Assembly: GCA_018435055.1 (NCBI GenBank)
Contig: JAHDOA010000016.1
Location: 1 to 64,000, forward strand
Direction: 5' to 3'
Origin: Pelotomaculum sp.
Lineage (GTDB): Bacteria > Bacillota > Desulfotomaculia > Desulfotomaculales > Pelotomaculaceae
Length of the DNA: 64,000 nt
Shown piece after piece: positions 2,721-54,369 of the stretch. The stretch's first letter is position 1; each line of letters opens with the position of its first letter. The position numbers and the translations under genes were made by a program. Under the pieces are notes generated by a model. That model made no database searches. It was not told the DNA's origin and worked only from the letters and a program-made list of their open reading frames with translations.

Positions 2721-2876
2721 ATGAACGCAGTTTTTGCCGAGAAAAAAACTGATCGCCCGGTGGTAAAAATAGTATATTCTAAGAATGGGAACAGCGGCTT
2801 GAAAGAAGCGTATCGGCTACTTGCCAGAAAGGTGTTGGAAGTAAAGAAATGCAAGCAGCAATCTATGTCAGAGTAA
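2721..2876 (+). CDS. 51-aa ORF overlapping recombinase start (possible accessory factor)
   Basis: ATG 2721 follows a good Shine-Dalgarno (AAGGGGTGATG at 2706-2716). The product is 51 residues, basic, and contains [18 protein letters not shown], likely helical. The stop at 2874-2876 lies 28 nt inside the recombinase gene, so the two are probably translationally coupled. I recall short ORFs with an EAYR-type helix sitting just upstream of large serine recombinases in Firmicutes. A role as recombination directionality factor is inference only. Confidence 0.5.
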   Translation: MNAVFAEKKTDRPVVKIVYSKNGNSGLKEAYRLLARKVLEVKKCKQQSMSE

Positions 2877-4351
2877 GTACGGATGACCAGGCGCGGCATG
2901 GCTTCTCTCTCGCAGAACAAAGGGAAGCTTGCCGCGCCCGGGCTTCTAGCCTGGGTGCCTCGACAATTAGAGAATTTGCTGACGAGGGTATATCCGGCAG
3001 CATCATGGATAGGCCCGGACTCACTTCTTTGAGGGGCGCTGTCAGAAACAACCAGGTTGATTTACTTGTGGTCCGTGATCCGGATCGGCTGTCGCGGAAG
3101 CTATCACACCAATTGTTACTCACCGAGGAAATTGAAAAGGCAGGTGTAAGGCTTGAATTCCTTGATTTCGACTGGAAGGACAGTCCGGAGGGCAGATTGT
3201 TTTATTCGGTACGAGGGGCAATATCGGAGTACGAACGCGAAAAAATTCGTGACAGGATGTCCAGGGGGAAGGATCAAAAAGCTAGGCAAGGTGGTATACC
3301 GATAGGCTTTTACAACTACGGCTATAACTATTTCCCCGATACGGGCAAGGTCACGATAAATGATGCTGAAGCGCCAATGGTGAAAAATATTTTCATCTGG
3401 TTCGCTTATGAAGACATTGGTATGAATGGTATCGCTAGGAGGCTCAACGAAACAGGAATTCCCACCAGGAAAGGCAGAGGGAAATGGCATCGTAATGTAA
3501 TCAGGCAAATATTAAGAAATCCTGTTTATATTGGTTATTGGAATTATAAAGATTTTTCAATACCAGTGCCTAGTATTGTAGATGCGGAAACATGGAATAA
3601 AGCACAGCAAAAACTAAAAGAGGCCCGCCGGTTGTGGGCTGGGTTAAGTAAAAACGATTACCTACTATCAGGTATAATCTCTTGCTCAGAGTGCGGTAAT
3701 ACTATGACCGGTGTTTATACAAAATGGTGGGATAAAAAAGAACGCCGATATACTTGCCGAAAAAACAGTCAAGGAGCTAAAAATAAGGGTTGCGTTCCGG
3801 CGAAGGCATTGCCGGCGCAGGTAATCGAGGACGCTGTATGGGAGCAAATACAAATCTGGTTGGATGATCCTGATGCACTCGCCAACGAAGTAATCAGTGA
3901 AGAACCCAGAGAGGAAGAGCTGAGACAGGAGTTAGTCCGAATTGAGGAACACATAAATAACAATGATAAGGGACGCGGTAACATCCTTGATTCGCTCGCT
4001 CTTGGGTTGATCGAACTAGACGCAATTACAAAAAACAAGCTCGCTGATTTAAAACGCAGGAAAGAAAGGCTCGAAAATAGAAAAAGGGAATTGGAAACAG
4101 TTTTAAGTGAGGCCCAAAGGCACGTGGCCGGCCTGGAAGAGTTAAGGTTAATTTCAAAACAGATTTTGTCAAGGCTAAGCTGTTTGGATTTTGATGATAG
4201 GAAGGCCCTTGTTAGGTTACTTGTCTCCCAGGTGATAATTGCCGGGCGAAGTCGGCCTGGCCGGAACGGCCTAAAAGATATACAAATTACCATAGTAGCC
4301 AAACTTCCGGAACAAATAGATGGTTCCATTTTTTCTAATATTTTACGCTAG
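2849..4351 (+). CDS. Large serine recombinase, SpoIVCA-like
   Basis: 500 residues. The N-terminal resolvase domain has the catalytic Ser in YVRVSTDDQ (Ser10), a conserved [10 protein letters not shown] segment and the long helix [14 protein letters not shown] Recombinase domain follows (about 155-260, with [15 protein letters not shown]), then a zinc ribbon (CSECG at ~278 with later C-x-C pairs), a coiled coil (about 350-430) and a C-terminal tail. This is the usual architecture and length of large serine integrases. The gene is convergent with, and overlaps by 17 bp, a sigK gene that stops abruptly after ARCIENEI. That is the same arrangement as spoIVCA beside spoIVCB in the B. subtilis skin element, so it most likely excises the element from sigK in the mother cell. 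The start is ATG 2849, read out of the 51-aa ORF. Confidence 0.85.
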
Positions 4352-4712
4352 TCTTTGTTATTGAGATTTCGTTTTCAATGCACCTGGCCGCATAGGTGGC
4401 CAGCCGGGTACCTTTACCAGGATTAAAGGTGTTGATTGCTTTGATCAGACCGATGGAACCGATGGAAATCAGGTCGTCAGGGTCCTCGCCGGCGTTGTCG
4501 AATTTTTTGGCGATGTGTGCGACCAGGCGCAGGTTCCGCTCCGTCAGCACATTGCGGGCTTTCTCATCTCCCCGTTTCAAGAGTTTGAGGTATTTTGCTT
4601 CTTCCTCCTCCGACAGCGGCTGTGGGAAGGTATTGTTGGCAATATATGAGACGAGCAATAGGAGGCCATTTACTAATGATAAAAGGGTCAAGGTCCAGAG
4701 ACCTGACAGCAT
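4335..4712 (-). CDS. sigK: Sigma-K N-terminal half (gene split by skin-like element)
   Basis: ATG 4712 is preceded on the minus strand by AGGGGGGGGG, 8 nt upstream. The first ~20 residues are a hydrophobic pro-sequence ([18 protein letters not shown]), then [41 protein letters not shown] and [17 protein letters not shown]. These match the pro-region and region 2 of pro-sigma-K. After ENEI (about residue 114) the family continues LMHLR, but here the frame reads SITKTSVKY and stops inside the recombinase gene. Regions 3 and 4 are missing. The breakpoint matches the site where the B. subtilis skin element splits spoIVCB from spoIIIC. The remaining half should lie left of the window on the same strand. 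Confidence 0.85.
4360..4380. other. Probable recombination (att) junction in sigK
   Basis: Minus-strand codons for I-E-N-E-I occupy 4379 to 4365. Similarity to sigK ends there, and the sequence beyond belongs to the element. In B. subtilis skin the 5-bp crossover AATGA lies in the same ENE codons; the corresponding bases here are AACGA (4369-4373). The exact core cannot be set without the other end. Confidence 0.6.
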
Positions 4713-4926
4713 CCGCTTACCCCCCCCCTGAATTCGCATGCTATTTATCATATGCGCCGCCGGCGAGTTGCGTGCGTCAATAATGAAATCTTTTTAAAGG
4801 ATTTTTGGGCTATCCGGAGAAAATAGGGAGAAAATAATATGTCAGGTCTATGGAAATTTCAACATCGACAAAAACACCGGATTCACATCAGATGGATTAG
4901 ATATCTTGAATAAAGGGGACGGGAAA

Positions 4927-29940: not shown

Positions 29941-30011
29941 GTTTAGTGTTTGTTTATGGAACTTTTATAGACATAGATTTGTGTTATGGTTTTGCGGAGG
30001 GAGGGATTATT

Positions 30012-30188
30012 GTGGCGGAAGTTAAGGTTGGAAAAAATGAAACATTGGACAGCGCCCTCCGGCGGTTCAAGCGTACCTGTCAAAAAGCTGGTGTTCTGGC
30101 TGAAGCTAGAAAGCACGAACATTACGAAAAACCCAGCGTGCGGAGGAAGAAAAAATCTGAGGCGGCTAGAAAGCGCAGATATCACTGA
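30012..30188 (+). CDS. rpsU: 30S ribosomal protein S21
   Basis: 58 residues, very basic: [20 protein letters not shown], then a C-terminal [18 protein letters not shown] 30012 follows GGAGGGAGGG; longer starts have no homology. Followed by a strong terminator. Position after the rsmE-mtaB block is conserved in Firmicutes. Confidence 0.94.
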
Positions 30189-30277: not shown

Positions 30278-31525
30278 TCAATATCTTAAGTACCCGTTAC
30301 GGTACAGCAGTTTTGATAGGCGCTTGGTTTCCTGGCAGACTACCCAGAAAAGGCAGTTTTCCTCGGAAGCGGTAAAGTGATCGCCAGTCTGCTCAAAGTT
30401 TACCGCATAGCAGCCCCCGCTGCATTTTCTGGTGCATTGCCGGCAGAAGCTGGGTTGCTTGTAGAGCGGCTCCCGGAATGGCTGCAGCAGTGTAAAATCT
30501 ATACCTGTGTTCACATTGCCAATTATATATTTGCCTTTTTCATCTGTAAGGCCGAGCATTTTGGAACAGGGGCTGACATCTCCGTTAGGCGCCACGGCCA
30601 GCGAGGAGCTGCCCGCCCGGCAGCCCCAGTTCCGATACTCATATTCGTTCTTTTCAAATTCCTCAATAAATATCTGATAGCCCCTGCGTTTCAGCTCATG
30701 GTAATCTTGCAATATCTTTACCAGGTTCAGGCCGTACCGTTCGATTTGTTCTTTGTTCCAGCAGGTTGCGCCCTGGGCCGGAGCGATAATAAACTGGTTA
30801 ATTCCCAGAGCGGCAATTTGATTAAAATCCTCCCTCATATCGTCGATCGCTTCCGCGCTGACGGTCATTCTGACGCCAAGCCAGGGCTGATATGTTTTAA
30901 TCAGGGGAATCATATTAACTATTTGGTTCCAGGTGCCTGCGCCGCTTTTCGTTTTCCGGTAACGGTCGTGGTTTTTCTGTCCCCCGTCAAGGCTCAGAAG
31001 TAGGTTGATTTTATTTTGCGCAAAGAAGCTTAATATCTCCTCGTTAATCAAGGTCCCGTTGGTAGTAATCGCCCAGGTGATCATAATATTCCTCTTTGTG
31101 GCCGCTCCCAGGGCATAAGGGGTGATTCGTTTGATCAAATCAAACTCCAGTAAAGGTTCACCGCCGATGAAGGTGATATTCACAATGGGATATGAAGCCC
31201 GTTCCAATAATAAATCGACTGCGTTTTTGGCCGTAGCAAAGGACATCCGCTCATGGGCGCCTTTATCGTGGATAAAGCAGTAGCTACAGATCAGATTGCA
31301 ATTGAAAGTAAGGTTTAATTCAATTGCTGCCAGACCGGTCCGGCCAGCGGCTGATTTATTATCAGCGAGGGATGCCAGTCTTGCCGCGTCTGCTGAGCTG
31401 ATAATAAACTTCTTTTCCAAAAGGAAAGCAAGATCCCGGGGGGAGTACCCGGGATTTTCCCCGGTATACTCCCCAATGAATTTTACCATTTCGTCTTGCC
31501 AGTTTTGATTGGTAATTATCTTCAT
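30278..31525 (-). CDS. Radical SAM/SPASM peptide-modifying enzyme
   Basis: 415 residues. The [4Fe-4S]-SAM motif is C76-x3-C80-x2-C83 (CNLICSYC); GGEP follows at 121-124, and ITTNGTLI and LLSLDGG are further radical SAM blocks. A SPASM-type domain supplies C301, C319, C360, C363, C367, C371, C390 and C397 for one or two auxiliary clusters. This pattern is typical of RiPP maturases and anaerobic sulfatase-maturase-like enzymes. The ATG lies 4 nt after the stop of the cysteine-rich repeat gene, so that protein is the obvious substrate. Formation of thioether or other Cys crosslinks is inference. The cassette lies between rpsU and yqfC on the opposite strand. Confidence 0.85.
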   Translation of the reverse strand: MKIITNQNWQDEMVKFIGEYTGENPGYSPRDLAFLLEKKFIISSADAARLASLADNKSAAGRTGLAAIELNLTFNCNLICSYCFIHDKGAHERMSFATAKNAVDLLLERASYPIVNITFIGGEPLLEFDLIKRITPYALGAATKRNIMITWAITTNGTLINEEILSFFAQNKINLLLSLDGGQKNHDRYRKTKSGAGTWNQIVNMIPLIKTYQPWLGVRMTVSAEAIDDMREDFNQIAALGINQFIIAPAQGATCWNKEQIERYGLNLVKILQDYHELKRRGYQIFIEEFEKNEYEYRNWGCRAGSSSLAVAPNGDVSPCSKMLGLTDEKGKYIIGNVNTGIDFTLLQPFREPLYKQPSFCRQCTRKCSGGCYAVNFEQTGDHFTASEENCLFWVVCQETKRLSKLLYRNGYLRY

Positions 31526-31529
31526 GAAT

Positions 31530-32528
31530 TTATTCCTTTGTTTCTTTTTTCTTTTCGCCCGGGCTATCTCCCAGCATCGATAATTCCATTGGTGAAAGGG
31601 GCGGTTTGGGCGGTCCTCCAGGCGCTCCTGGCGCAGTTCCGGCCGGCGCTATGCCGATAAACTGCTGGCCGCCGCAGGCGAAGCCTCCCGGGACGCCGCA
31701 CTGCGAGCCACCAAATAGGAACGGCGAGCAGGGCTGACCGAAGATAAAAGGCCCGCAGGGCTGCGCGAATTGGAATGTGCCGCACTGGAACAGGAAAGCG
31801 CAGGGCTGGCTAAACTGGAATGGTCTGCAAACCCCAAAAGTGAAAGGTCCGCAGGGTTGGTTAAACTGGAATGGGCCGCAGGCGAAGAACGGGCAGGCGC
31901 CGCCGCCGGAAGGAAAGCTGGGCGTGTAACTGCCCGGGCAGGCGAAAGAAAATGTGCAGGTGTCAGGTGGCCGGCAGATATAACTGCGGGCGCAGGTGAA
32001 ACCGGGGAAGGAAGTGCAGGCTATTTTTGCATGCGGGTCCTCACCGGCCATCCCCGCTGACGGCTGCTGCATTTGGCCGGGTCCCACAAAGCCGTAAAAC
32101 TGAGCGCCCTGGCAGGCAAATCCACCAAATATATCGCACTGGGAGCCGCCGCCACCGGGCACATAGCGGCCGGGGCAGGAAAAGTTGAAAGTACAAGTGT
32201 CAGGAGGCTGGCAGATATAGCTTTGGGCGCAGTTGAATCCCGGGAAGGAATTGCACGCTATTTCCGCTTTTACGCTATCTCTTAACTTCTCCGCGATCTG
32301 GTCCATATTCTCGCTGGTCAGAGTCCGGGCCGGAGCCTCCCAAACAATATAAACAGCCTCAACAGGTATAGCGCCAATACCCTCATCTGACTGCAGGCGC
32401 ACATAATGTTGCTCAGCTGATAATACTGTGCCGGATATCTTTCTGCCGTTGACCAGCTCAATAACCACTGTCTTACCTATGTTAGCTTTTAATTGCTCTA
32501 ACAATACCAAAACTCCTCTCATGGGCAT
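31530..32528 (-). CDS. 22-Cys repeat protein, candidate radical SAM substrate
   Basis: 332 residues from ATG 32528; TTG 32504, with AGAGGAG 8 nt upstream, is an equally good start (324 residues). Residues ~10-65 form a small basic/beta domain (GKTVVIELVNGRKISGTVLS) resembling an LSm-like or DUF2642-type fold. Two modules follow with identical Cys spacing: C92, C100, C106, C112, C118 and C171, C179, C185, C191, C197 (shared text SFPGF, SYIC, PPDTCTF, CPG). Then ten more Cys in Phe/Pro/Gln-rich units such as CGPFQFNQP. It ends in a Pro/Gly tail and KKKETKE. No signal peptide. It could be a giant RiPP-like precursor or a crosslinked spore-coat protein. Confidence 0.75.
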   Translation of the reverse strand: MPMRGVLVLLEQLKANIGKTVVIELVNGRKISGTVLSAEQHYVRLQSDEGIGAIPVEAVYIVWEAPARTLTSENMDQIAEKLRDSVKAEIACNSFPGFNCAQSYICQPPDTCTFNFSCPGRYVPGGGGSQCDIFGGFACQGAQFYGFVGPGQMQQPSAGMAGEDPHAKIACTSFPGFTCARSYICRPPDTCTFSFACPGSYTPSFPSGGGACPFFACGPFQFNQPCGPFTFGVCRPFQFSQPCAFLFQCGTFQFAQPCGPFIFGQPCSPFLFGGSQCGVPGGFACGGQQFIGIAPAGTAPGAPGGPPKPPLSPMELSMLGDSPGEKKKETKE

Positions 32529-32736: not shown

Positions 32737-33021
32737 ATGGTTTTACGTGATTTCAGGCGAAAAGTAAAAAAACAGTTTGCCGATTTTCTTGAACTGCCGG
32801 GCGATGTAATGCTGGACCTGCCCAAAATAACCATGTTTGGCGATATTAAGCTGTACATAGAAAACCACCGCGGCATTATTGAGTACAGCACGTCGGGAGT
32901 CAGAGTCGGCGTGCGGGATGGAGAACTGGTGGTCACCGGAGAAGGTCTGCTGCTGCGGAATGTGCTTCCCGATGAAATCTGTGTAGAAGGGAAAATCAAA
33001 ACCCTGAGTTTCTCTTATTAA
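32737..33021 (+). CDS. yqfC: Sporulation protein YqfC
   Basis: 94 residues; the sequence FLELPGDVMLDLPKITMFGD and LYIENHRGIIEYS fits the YqfC family (YabP/YqfC). Its biochemical role is unknown; in Bacillus it belongs to the SigmaE regulon. AGGAGGGG precedes ATG 32737. It is divergent from the Cys-rich cassette and followed by yqfD after 17 nt. Confidence 0.9.
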   Translation: MVLRDFRRKVKKQFADFLELPGDVMLDLPKITMFGDIKLYIENHRGIIEYSTSGVRVGVRDGELVVTGEGLLLRNVLPDEICVEGKIKTLSFSY

Positions 33022-49698: not shown

Positions 49699-51602
49699 GT
49701 GCGCCCGGCATGGGCGCAGTCTAACGGGTGAAAGTCCCGAGTGCGGGTTGATAGTGCCAAGCACATAGCCAAAGGCAAGGGTGTCCATCGTGAGGTGGAA
49801 TCTGAAGGAAGCCGGAGGCAAACTTCTGGTCTGACGAACAGAAATCACATAAGGCATACGTAAGCTGGGTAAGGTTGCCATACAAACTGAAGCCCTAAAC
49901 TATCCGGAAGCTTACGGTGTAGATGTGGCAGATAGATGGAAGGAAAGACTGCGCTCTTACCCGGGGAGGCCTCACGGACGGGCTGAAACAGAGTATGAGG
50001 CCCGGTTGAAACAAGATTTATCGTGAGGAGTCAGCCGAAGCCATAGTACAGAGGTGTTCTGGGCACCGAAGGAAGGGCCGAACCAAAGGAGGTGCAGGTC
50101 AATGAAAGCCACTGATAGTGACAAATTAAAACACAGACAACTTCGATTTGAAGACTATCTGCAAATGGTATCTGCGGAACAGAAAGAGTATGCAGAAGTG
50201 TGCGCGTCACCGAAGATGGCTGAAACCGACAGCACCAACACAAACAAGCAGAAGGAAGGATTGCTAGAGCAAATTATAGCCAGAGACAACCTGAACCGTG
50301 CCTACAAGCAGGTGAAGAGAAACAAAGGCGCAGGTGGAATTGATGGTATGCAGGTAGATGAACTTCTACCCTACCTAAAAGAAAACCAGAAGGAACTTTT
50401 GCAATCCCTCCGGGACGGGAAATACCGTCCAAAACCTGTGCGCAGGGTAGAAATACCGAAGGAGAACGGGAAGACCAGAAAACTGGGGATACCAACCGTC
50501 GTGGACAGGTTTATCCAGCAAGCGATATGCCAAGTCCTGACCCCAATCTTTGAGAAGCAGTTTTCAGACAATAGCTATGGATTTCGACCAAAAAGGAGCG
50601 CGCATGACGCGCTCAAAAGATGCCGGACCAATATCACAGAGGGCTATAAGTACGTAGTTGATATGGATTTGGAAAAGTATTTTGACACGGTGAACCAAAG
50701 CAAACTCATTCAAATACTGTCGGAAACGATAAAAGATGGACGAGTGATATCGCTTATCCATAGATTCCTGAGGTCAGGCGTTATGGTGGGCGGAATGTTT
50801 GAAGACAGCCCGGAAGGCGTGCCCCAAGGCGGACCCCTGAGCCCATTGCTTGGGAACATCATGCTAAATGAATGCGACCATGAACTGGAGAGGCGTGGAC
50901 ACCGCCTTGTCCGCTACGCTGATGATATGATGATATTCTGCAAAAGCAGGAAGGCGGCAGAACGTACGCTAGACCATATTTTGCCGTACATCGAAGGGAA
51001 GTTATTCCTGAAAGTGAATCGGGAAAAGACACAAGTGGCATACGTAAGCAAGGTCAAATATCTGGGATACAGCTTTTACATCTATAAGGGAGAAGGCAGG
51101 CTCAGAGTTCACCCGAAAAGCATCCGGAAACTCAAAGATAAAATTCGAGAAGTTACCGGACGCAGCAACGGAATGGGCATTGAGGCGAGGAAAACCCGAC
51201 TCAACCAAGTTATTAGAGGATGGGTAAACTACTTCAAACTGGCGGATATGAAGCAAGCACTCAAAGAGTTAGACAAATGGACGAGAAGCCGTATTCGAAT
51301 GGTGACCTGGAAACGATGGAAAAAGATTCGGACACGCTTTGAGAATCTCAAACGAGCAGGCCTGGATGAGGAAAGGGCGTGGATGTGGGCAAATACAAGA
51401 AAAGGCTACTGGCGAACCGCCCATAGCCCAATCTTGACAAGAGTCCTATCCAACGAGAGGTTCAAACGTGCCGGATACCTCAGTCTGATGGAATGTTACT
51501 CTGCGAAATAATGTGTAAACTTTGGAAGCGCCGTATACCGAACGGTACGTACGGTGCTGTGGGAGGTCGGCTACTCAATTAATGGGTAGCCTCCTACCCG
51601 AT
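49699..51602 (+). mobile_element. Group II intron (class C-like) with maturase
   Basis: The 5' end GTGCG at 49699 abuts a terminator, the preferred site of class C introns. About 400 nt of structured leader precede the maturase. After the ORF there is a domain V-like hairpin (51527-51558: AGCGCCGTA pairs with TACGGTGCT) and a domain VI-like hairpin (51562-51595: GGAGG/CCTCC, GCTACTC/GGGTAGC), ending near CCTACCCGAT. Boundaries are approximate to a few bases at the 3' end. Confidence 0.88.
50102..51511 (+). CDS. ltrA: Group II intron reverse transcriptase/maturase
   Basis: 469 residues from ATG 50102 (AAAGGAGGTG upstream). RT blocks include RNKGAGGIDGMQVDELLPYL, RRVEIPKENGKTRKLGIPT, NSYGFRPKRSAHDAL, DLEKYFDTV, GVPQGGPLSPLLGNIML and RYADDMMIFCKS (YADD active site). 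The maturase domain has RGWVNYFKLADM. No HNH endonuclease domain is seen, consistent with class C. Confidence 0.95.
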   Translation: MKATDSDKLKHRQLRFEDYLQMVSAEQKEYAEVCASPKMAETDSTNTNKQKEGLLEQIIARDNLNRAYKQVKRNKGAGGIDGMQVDELLPYLKENQKELLQSLRDGKYRPKPVRRVEIPKENGKTRKLGIPTVVDRFIQQAICQVLTPIFEKQFSDNSYGFRPKRSAHDALKRCRTNITEGYKYVVDMDLEKYFDTVNQSKLIQILSETIKDGRVISLIHRFLRSGVMVGGMFEDSPEGVPQGGPLSPLLGNIMLNECDHELERRGHRLVRYADDMMIFCKSRKAAERTLDHILPYIEGKLFLKVNREKTQVAYVSKVKYLGYSFYIYKGEGRLRVHPKSIRKLKDKIREVTGRSNGMGIEARKTRLNQVIRGWVNYFKLADMKQALKELDKWTRSRIRMVTWKRWKKIRTRFENLKRAGLDEERAWMWANTRKGYWRTAHSPILTRVLSNERFKRAGYLSLMECYSAK

Positions 51603-51982: not shown

Positions 51983-52365
51983 TGTCAGATAATACTGCCT
52001 TGCCAAGAAAAAACTATATTGACAATATCCGTTCTGGAACAATCATACTTGTACTCATTTATCATGTGGTTTATATTTTTAACAGCGTGGGGGTTGTTAG
52101 CAACATTCCCATACAGGGAATCTTGGCACTGGATAGCATCTGTTATTTTCTTTATCCCTGGTTTATGTGCCTGTTGTTTGTAGTTGCTGGTATCAGCGCC
52201 AGATACTCCCTGCAAACACGCAGTACCAGACAATTCGTGCGGGAAAGAGTGCGAAAACTAATCGTCCCATACTTTGGCGGCGTATTTTTGCTCGGTTGGC
52301 TAAATGGGTGGGTTACAGCGCATTATTTTGATATGTTTGGCGGGCATGCTGTCGCGGGGGTATAG
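51982..52365 (+). pseudogene. Truncated acyltransferase (OafA/acyltransferase 3 type)
   Basis: 127 residues with membrane segments and RSGTIILVLIYHVVYIFNSV, FLYPWFMCLLFVVAGISARY, RERVRKLIVPYFGG, the N-terminal third of Acyl_transf_3 proteins. Family members have 350 or more residues; here the similarity ends near HYFDMFGG and a stop follows. The end merges with the 3' end of the convergent GH18 gene, implying a deletion or insertion junction at about 52340-52380. Confidence 0.65.
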
Positions 52366-53321
52366 TTATGGCGCAATAAGGCTTTGATAACTAAGTCCCA
52401 AATACGGACATCCTCTAAACCAAGCCTCCAGACTCCAATTCCTGGAATGCCACTTTGTAAAACCAAGTGAATTTTTGTCATAAAACTTTTAATGTTTTCA
52501 AACCAAACAATATGCCGAGTGCCATTTTCTGTATATGTGTAGGTTGGCTCCTGGGCTTCTTCATCAAAACGGATTGTTGCCCCAAATTGTGCAGCCCTGT
52601 TGACGGCTTCATTAAATGAGAGCTCCATGGGCAGTATGGTATTTTCTGACCAATCGCGACCGTATACTGCCATTCCTAAACGAATTTTTTCTCTTGGAAT
52701 TACAGATAAAGCATATGAAAGAACTTGACGGACAAAACCTATTGAGGCAATAGGTCCGGGTTGACTTACATGCTCATCATAGGCAAGCACGTAAATTTGA
52801 TCACTGTTTTGCGCTAAATCAGGGTAACTAAAAGCTCCTGAAAATGGATGGGCAGGATCATCACGAAGTTCCGGAGGTACTGAAATAGTGACAAGTAAAC
52901 CAGCCGGCTTCAGGACCTGTGAAAGTTCGGTCATAAACGTCGTCATGAATTGTCTGTCTCCAGGTGGTACAAATTCAAAGTCTATGTTTACCCCGGGAAA
53001 ACCATAGCTTATTAGCATATTATAAATATTTAAGACCAGAGATCGGCGGAGATATTGGTTTGTTAGCAGTCTATGTATTAGGGGGCCGTATTCAGGGCTT
53101 GCAAAGTTATGAACAATAGGTATAACGGGCAAGCCAATTTGGCGTGTAATTGACAGAGTATTAGTGTCGGACTGGTCAATTAGATCAGCCTGTTCGGTTA
53201 CCCCGAACCAAAAAGGTATTAAGGCATTTATTTTAACCCCATTATTTATAAGACTCGCTATGGCCCTTGGTTCTGTTACATAATACCAGTTGTTTTCAAA
53301 GGGATACCCTTGTTGAATCAA
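52323..53321 (-). CDS. GH18 glycosidase, spore-peptidoglycan hydrolase-like
   Basis: 332 residues without signal peptide. The GH18 catalytic region has GFPGVNIDFEFVPPGDRQF (Asp/Glu acid), LLVTISVPPELRD, QIYVLAYDEH and IRLGMAVYGRDW. It is closest to SleL/YaaH-type N-acetylglucosaminidases that act on spore cortex, but LysM modules are missing; it may rely on another attachment. TTG 53321 has GGAGG. The last ~20 residues appear to be foreign sequence from the acyltransferase junction. It follows the L,D-transpeptidase gene. Confidence 0.8.
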   Translation of the reverse strand: MIQQGYPFENNWYYVTEPRAIASLINNGVKINALIPFWFGVTEQADLIDQSDTNTLSITRQIGLPVIPIVHNFASPEYGPLIHRLLTNQYLRRSLVLNIYNMLISYGFPGVNIDFEFVPPGDRQFMTTFMTELSQVLKPAGLLVTISVPPELRDDPAHPFSGAFSYPDLAQNSDQIYVLAYDEHVSQPGPIASIGFVRQVLSYALSVIPREKIRLGMAVYGRDWSENTILPMELSFNEAVNRAAQFGATIRFDEEAQEPTYTYTENGTRHIVWFENIKSFMTKIHLVLQSGIPGIGVWRLGLEDVRIWDLVIKALLRHNYTPATACPPNISK

Positions 53322-53377: not shown

Positions 53378-54217
53378 TTATGGTCTAACATCTCCCAATG
53401 CCAAGTCATTAACCAGTTGCAGCCGGTTATAGGTCATAGGGCCTACGATTCCGTCGGGACTTAGCCCCTGATCCCGTTGAAATCGAATTACAGCTGCTTC
53501 TGTAACTGGACCGTAAAACCCGTCCAGGTCGCTTCGGTAATAGCCGAGTATTTGCAAAATTTGCTGGACACGTAATACATCTGAACCAGGTTCCACACCT
53601 ATACGTAGAAGTCTTCCTGTGAAAGCATTACCTGTTATTTTTACCCTAGTTCCGAGAGACACAAGGTCGTATATCCGGATAATGTCGTCATTGTGCATGC
53701 GGACACACCCATGACTGGCCGCAGTACCAATAGAGGCCTCGTTATCAGTGCCGTGAATGCCATACCCTCCCCATGGACAGTTAATTCTCATCCAACGCAC
53801 ACCGAATGGCCCCCCCGGGTTTAGTGTTTTTTGGATAATCTTCCAGTCCCCTATAGGTGTTGGTGTGTCGGGTTTACCCACAGCCACTGGAAAGAGTCCT
53901 GCCTGTCGCCCTAAATGTTGCAGCGAGAGTTGTAATGTTGATGTATCAATATTAATAACATATTCCGGTGAGATCGTAACTTCGTCTGTTGGACTGAGCC
54001 CCAAGGCATTATATGTGTCAGGTCCGACAATACCGTCCGGGGCCAGACCAAAACTCTGCTGTGCCCTAACAACAGCATCGCGTGTCTCCGGGTTATATAC
54101 ACCGTTAACCGGACCATTATAAAAACCCAGCTCCATAAGCCGTCTTTGTACATACTGGACGTCAGGTCCATTCATTAAAGGTTCCGATAATCGTAAGTAC
54201 CTACTTGCATATATCAT
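53378..54217 (-). CDS. L,D-transpeptidase with two peptidoglycan-binding domains
   Basis: 279 residues. PG-binding_1 repeat at ~12-70 (VQYVQRRLMELGFYNGPVNG), YkuD catalytic domain at ~80-195 with IHGTDNEA and the active site SIGTAASHGCVRM, and a second PG-binding repeat at ~210-270. No clear signal peptide. It would form L,D-crosslinks in peptidoglycan, perhaps of the spore. ATG 54217 has GGGGTGA. Upstream of, and probably co-transcribed with, the GH18 gene. Confidence 0.88.
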   Translation of the reverse strand: MIYASRYLRLSEPLMNGPDVQYVQRRLMELGFYNGPVNGVYNPETRDAVVRAQQSFGLAPDGIVGPDTYNALGLSPTDEVTISPEYVINIDTSTLQLSLQHLGRQAGLFPVAVGKPDTPTPIGDWKIIQKTLNPGGPFGVRWMRINCPWGGYGIHGTDNEASIGTAASHGCVRMHNDDIIRIYDLVSLGTRVKITGNAFTGRLLRIGVEPGSDVLRVQQILQILGYYRSDLDGFYGPVTEAAVIRFQRDQGLSPDGIVGPMTYNRLQLVNDLALGDVRP

Positions 54218-54369
54218 GAATCTTCACCCCATAGCATAATATGAATGACACATGGCAATTGTTACCACCACCTCGTTATTCCCACACCGCTTCCCCGGGA
54301 TGCGGGCTTCACTGGCTCAACGGTTTCACCTTTTTAGACAAGCTAATGATGCTCCATTAATAAAATAAA

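Follow-up and report, generated by a model that had tools for sequence, protein, structure and literature searches.

What does a radical SAM enzyme do beside a protein that is repetitive and rich in cysteine, and at which stage of the life of the cell? This question is raised by two genes in the window, the 64 000 nt stretch of Pelotomaculum sp. DNA analysed here (contig JAHDOA010000016.1, positions 1–64 000). The gene for a radical SAM/SPASM maturase (30278–31525, minus strand, 415 aa) lies 4 nt 3′ of a gene on the same strand for the putative substrate, or precursor (31530–32528, 332 aa from the ATG at 32528), and the pair is flanked by rpsU (about 29946–30188) and yqfC (32737–33021). This arrangement, with both ORFs, their strand and their spacing, had been described in an earlier sequence-only reading and was confirmed, as was its count of 22 cysteines in the substrate. 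The length of 332 aa that it gave holds for the ATG, but a start at the TTG at 32504 is favoured, which would give a protein of about 324 aa. A GAGGAG ribosome-binding site (32513–32518) lies 8 nt before this TTG and most orthologues start at the equivalent place (MLEQL/MFEQL), so the TTG is probably the true start. The orthologue in genome G004 is 89 % identical and keeps all 22 cysteines, and codon differences between the two in the repeat part are more often synonymous (39) than non-synonymous (23); because of the conserved cysteines and the synonymous excess, the reading frame is taken as a true coding frame.

The window genome and 60 relatives (61 genomes in total) were searched with both proteins. 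Enzyme orthologues (at least 61 % identity) and substrate homologues were found in an identical set of 16 genomes and none of the 61 possessed one without the other; independent occurrence in relatives, which the sequence-only reading had named as a finding that would speak against a joint system, was thus absent at the genome level. The intergenic gap ranged from −14 to +6 nt in 15 of the 16 pairs and was 30 nt in the remaining pair. Distances between the enzymes correlated with those between the Sm-like N-terminal domains of the substrates described below (r = 0.84, with none of 2000 permutations as high), a correlation which partly mirrors the common ancestry of the genomes. A class-wide search of 113 genomes detected the enzyme in 19 genomes belonging to two families, and a phylum-wide sample of 399 genomes added three more from two other families; outside the class the pair was kept at enzyme identities of 57–62 %. 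Six further genomes, three of them outside the class, were inspected and in all of them a gene encoding an Sm domain and cysteine repeats adjoined the enzyme gene, plainly so in G218, G161, G097 and G093. The automatic ORF call had merged the region in G479, where the substrate frame could be read directly 5′ of the enzyme. In G092 (locus L139, the same region as L100, Desulforamulus aquiferis) the substrate repeats were out of frame and the enzyme was split between two ORFs, which marks this pair, judged by its sequence, as a decaying or misassembled copy. Since the two genes were neighbours in every enzyme-bearing genome examined, the pairing is not due to chance. Several genomes carried extra substrate genes on other contigs together with a single close orthologue of the enzyme, and in G008 a second substrate gene was located just 3′ of the enzyme gene.

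The window enzyme matched the Pfam models Radical_SAM (9.5e-16) and SPASM (1.8e-6, above the cut-off). The CxxxCxxC cluster motif (C76, C80 and C83) was present in all 16 orthologues. The eight further SPASM-region cysteines that had been noted from the sequence were conserved to different degrees: seven (C302, C320, C361, C364, C368, C372 and C391) were invariant in the 16 orthologues, whereas the eighth, C397, was found in 13. The first part of the SPASM pattern, CX12GX4C, fits the form CX9-15GX4C, whilst the second part reads CX2CX3CX3C rather than the usual CX2CX5CX3C, a spacing that was seen in the aligned 5wgg sequence. The N-terminal 60 residues were predicted to form three helices without strands, in a poor AlphaFold model (pLDDT 50), and no Pfam match to an RRE/PqqD recognition domain was detected in the enzyme.

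Comparison with NCBIfam placed the window enzyme near known maturases but below every cut-off seen. The best match was the PapB ranthipeptide maturase model (NF047865, 208 bits against a cut-off of 340), followed by the SCIFF maturase model (TIGR03974, 166 bits against 425) and QhpD (166 against 453), and the PapB and SCIFF models matched all nine of the enzyme orthologues tested. Membership of the PapB family was ruled out by the curated cut-off. Like PapA/PapB (freyrasin), the pair combines a radical SAM/SPASM enzyme with a cysteine-rich substrate that contains C-X3-D units (CRPPD); the differences are that most repeats here lack Asp and Glu, that the substrate is long and structural with an Sm-fold N-terminus in place of a short leader, and that the window substrate gene has a sigma-K-type promoter. 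The SCIFF-type (CteB-type) maturases provide the nearest solved structure (5wgg, E 1.6e-34). Membership of this family was likewise ruled out, both by score and by the partner, which has 22 cysteines in about 324 aa whereas SCIFF peptides are short and have six; the SPASM spacing also differs, and a recognition domain was not detected here. A separate homologue, with 32 % identity, is encoded in the window genome. QhpD, the radical SAM maturase of quinohemoprotein amine dehydrogenase, makes thioethers in a protein subunit that is kept as a structural part, but it acts on another substrate, with other partner genes and in another organism.

The substrate did not match any naming model in NCBIfam or Pfam. 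The sequence-only reading had assigned it a folded N-terminal domain, and such a domain is predicted, although with good confidence only for about residues 4–64 (32337–32519, minus strand; AlphaFold2 pLDDT about 80–88 across most of the domain). The model consists of a helix followed by a five-stranded barrel, the arrangement expected of Sm/Hfq-like domains, and in Foldseek it matched Hfq and other Sm-fold proteins with TM-scores of 0.64–0.75 on the target. Pfam LSM gave a weak match in 10 of 11 substrate members (best E 8e-4), the window substrate itself being below the cut-off. By predicted structure the N-terminal domain thus has an Sm/Hfq-like fold, but it differs from Hfq/Sm-like proteins in lying under the sequence cut-offs and in being fused to a cysteine-repeat tail. 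DUF2642 was also considered as the family of this domain and was rejected; the window genome had no match and one substrate matched weakly, and no paper connecting DUF2642 with spores was found in the open literature searched. Two relatives of the Sm domain were noted at other loci. One (L088:2004–2615, minus strand) has a tail rich in His, Cys, Tyr and Asn and is accompanied by a sigma-K-type site, and the other (L090:7354–7692, plus strand) has a tail nearly free of cysteine and lacks such a site. Spore proteins may make wider use of the Sm domain as a building block.

The remainder of the substrate was predicted to be disordered and its C-terminal part contains about 10 % cysteine. In the window protein, module A (ACxSFPGFxCAxSYICxPPDTCTFxFxCPG) occurs in two copies, ACNSFPGFNCAQSYICQPPDTCTFNFSCPG (32160–32267, minus strand), which includes a C-X3-D unit, and ACTSFPGFTCARSYICRPPDTCTFSFACPG (31920–32030, minus strand). 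Tandem nonamers of the CGPFQFGQP type follow (31713–31898, minus strand), and the tail also holds modules resembling GGSQCGVPGGFACxGQQFIGxAP, namely the closing module GGSQCGVPGGFACGGQQFIGIAP (31644–31712, minus strand) and a module similar to it at 32082–32150. Substrates varied in length from 215 to 336 aa and their repeat units were related yet different, for example CTAQYMQP and CQYQQP in other genomes and CFERFGQP, CYQAYAQP and CRERFGPPPP outside the class; distant substrates lacked module A. When the surroundings of 493 cysteines from 27 substrates were compared, position +4 was enriched in Tyr (6-fold), Gln (3-fold) and Asp (2.9-fold), and positions +3 and +5 in Phe (about 3-fold). In many substrates module A contained C-X3-D/E units in the form of CRPPD or CQPPD, but the majority of cysteines had neither Asp nor Glu at +4.

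The 5′ region of the window substrate gene contains the sequence AACAGAATAACGCCATTAAGCATATTTTA (32571–32543, minus strand), which reads AACA-N16-CATATTTTA (that is, AC-N17-CATAnnnT) and lies 5′ of the probable start at 32504. This pattern occurred within 150 nt 5′ of 23 of the 25 substrate genes, the same genes from which it had been derived before counting, and of 3 of 308 other genes at the same loci (3 of 169 when only genes preceded by intergenic sequence were taken as background). After dinucleotide shuffling of the regions 5′ of the substrate genes, 0.4 matches were obtained on average and three at most. When spacings of 8–27 nt were tested, 17 stood out, with 21 genes carrying AAC at this distance compared with eight for the next best spacing. 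Substrate copies that stand alone without an enzyme neighbour carried the pattern as well, and one of the three background matches was sigK itself (G046, L077:4210–4905, minus strand). Since the motif was read off the counted genes, distant genomes provide a fairer test; four loci that had no part in its definition (L136, L138, L146 and L151) showed the same elements at 16 or 17 nt, and sigma-K-type sites were also found outside the class. The pattern likewise preceded the pair of a genome that belongs to another family. A search with the sigma-K pattern gave a modest excess, with 27 matches compared with 11 in the reversed control.

Published sigma-K promoters have a −35 element of five nt, a gap of 14–16 nt and a −10 element of ten nt (PMC517825), with which the motif agrees, whilst its −35 element differs from the ATA of the sigma-E type (ATA-N16-CATATATA; PMC3789822). 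As consensus matches, the sites identify mother-cell sigma-K-type promoters in front of the substrate genes. In Clostridioides difficile coat and exosporium genes are driven by sigma-K (PMC3789822), and the sites support, at the level of sequence, late mother-cell expression of the pair and a role in coat or exosporium.

These promoters back a spore role far better than the position of the pair near yqfC and yqfD, which the sequence-only reading had taken as its hint. The rpsU–yqfC setting was kept in the window genome, G004, G008 (P. propionicicum) and G015, and other neighbours varied elsewhere; as the location is not conserved beyond these few relatives, it was dropped as evidence. The pair was found near sigK in G056, G046, G092 and related genomes, at a distance of about 2 kb in Desulforamulus-type genomes. 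Whether SpoIVA is present did not help to tell genomes that have the pair from those that lack it, since nearly all members of the class sporulate.

Some other features of the window were recorded. Its sigK gene seems to be split, with the N-terminal half (4335–4751, minus strand) ending in a stop codon beside a serine recombinase gene (2849–4351, plus strand) and the C-terminal half on another contig (G000:C38:89537–89890), which looks like interruption of sigK by a skin-type element. A putative L,D-transpeptidase/peptidoglycan-binding gene (53378–54217, minus strand), preceded by a sigma-K-like promoter (54235–54263), is followed by a glycoside-hydrolase-18-like gene (52323–53321, minus strand), and together these are probably another spore-wall operon. 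An ORF at 50054–51511 encodes a reverse transcriptase/maturase of the group II intron type.

The reading that we consider reasonably probable is a sporulation-specific maturation system in which the radical SAM/SPASM enzyme cross-links a structural spore-surface protein by thioethers. The sequence-only reading had suggested a RiPP-like or spore-coat cross-linking system; the spore side of this idea is well supported by the sigma-K-type promoters, whilst for the cross-linking side we infer modification of the paired substrate from the enzyme family and the composition of the substrate. Late in sporulation, mother-cell RNA polymerase with sigma-K would transcribe substrate and enzyme together on a single bicistronic message, and several species would make extra copies of the repeat protein from single genes as well. 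The Sm/Hfq-fold domain, common to all substrates, would take the place of a RiPP leader in recognition and might in addition serve assembly or ring formation; it is a natural candidate for recognition because several substrates that share it are served by one enzyme. The enzyme would then act repeatedly along the unstructured repeats, joining cysteine sulphur to neighbouring residues, with C-X3-D (CRPPD), C-x-x-F-x-F and C-X3-Y units as candidate sites. The product, for which we infer a location at the spore surface, would remain intact and be incorporated into coat or exosporium, where it would form a cross-linked layer that cannot be reduced. PapB forms thioethers from Cys to Asp or Glu in C-X3-D/E and tolerates spacings of 0–6 (PMC9413430). 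The CRPPD units fit this chemistry, but since most repeat units have no Asp or Glu, the exact Cys–Asp linkage of PapB cannot cover most of the cysteines. Many cysteine cross-links of the thioether type are likely in the putative coat protein, and the acceptor may be another residue, such as the regularly placed Phe, Tyr or Gln.

The enzyme could instead modify a structural spore-surface protein with a different bond, for example through C–C or C–O links, of the cyclophane or ether type, that connect conserved aromatic residues and leave the cysteines free for disulphides or metal; Phe and Tyr recur in the repeats with almost the regularity of Cys, and cyclophane-forming SPASM enzymes are among the weaker NCBIfam matches. 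We regard this as unlikely, as the strongest family matches (PapB and SCIFF) are thioether formers and Cys alone is constant in all repeat types, even in the distant forms CFERFGQP and CRERFGPPPP.

The substrate might instead be an ordinary disulphide-linked coat or exosporium protein and the enzyme might act on something else. Cysteine-rich proteins of these layers are known that have no such enzyme, among them the C. difficile exosporium cysteine-rich proteins, CotY and ExsY. CdeC and CotY/ExsY resemble the substrate in being cysteine-rich builders of spore surface layers, but they lack an Sm domain and repeats of the window type, and we know of no dedicated radical SAM partner for them. The partnership of the two genes in all genomes examined, their joint presence or absence, their close spacing or overlap and their correlated divergence make this explanation improbable.

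A third possibility is that the pair makes a secreted RiPP during sporulation, a killing factor or signal resembling sactipeptides or ranthipeptides. SkfB makes the sporulation killing factor in this way; it was weakly matched among the solved structures, and a radical SAM/SPASM maturase beside a cysteine-rich protein fits this reading. However, the substrates are 215–336 aa long with a predicted folded N-terminal domain, several genomes hold more than one copy and the promoter is of the late mother-cell type rather than a pre-sporulation one. The neighbourhood is also variable, with an ABC transporter gene pair 3′ of the enzyme in one subgroup only, and a constant peptidase, exporter or immunity gene was not found beside the pair in the loci compared; neither leader removal nor export thus has a conserved gene there. 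We therefore hold a secreted product to be quite improbable. Very improbable indeed is an RNA-binding spore regulator or RNA-storage protein outside the coat, which the Hfq-like predicted fold might suggest, since sequence similarity to Hfq/LSM lies under the cut-off and most of the protein is a repeat of Cys, aromatic residues and Pro.

With regard to the preferred reading, a thioether cross-linked spore-surface protein, no publication linking radical SAM maturation, thioethers and the spore coat was found in the open literature; subscription journals lay outside the scope of the search. It is possible that the system has been mentioned before, for instance among the unnamed clusters of such a network of sequence similarity. 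Passages on P. thermopropionicum in a survey of RiPPs in anaerobes concern other systems (PMC4289311). The enzyme superfamily is known and the type of bond is probably known too; the architecture of the substrate, its regulation and its likely role are new. Radical SAM peptide maturases have been studied mainly as producers of small antibiotics or signals, and known links in spore coats include disulphides, dityrosine and transglutaminase products.

The fullest form of the proposal, which we put forward tentatively as possible rather than probable, is that these strict anaerobes produce a sigma-K-controlled coat polymer in which a single radical SAM enzyme, guided by the Sm/Hfq-like domain, installs many thioethers along the Cys/aromatic repeats and so creates a permanently non-reducible layer. 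If true, a dedicated maturase that acts on a structural protein of spores would carry RiPP-type chemistry into the field of biological materials, with a folded Sm-type domain in place of the linear leader peptide. Spore coats would then possess a cross-linking principle besides those already known, and the pair would represent a class of enzyme-hardened biological material that has not been described before.
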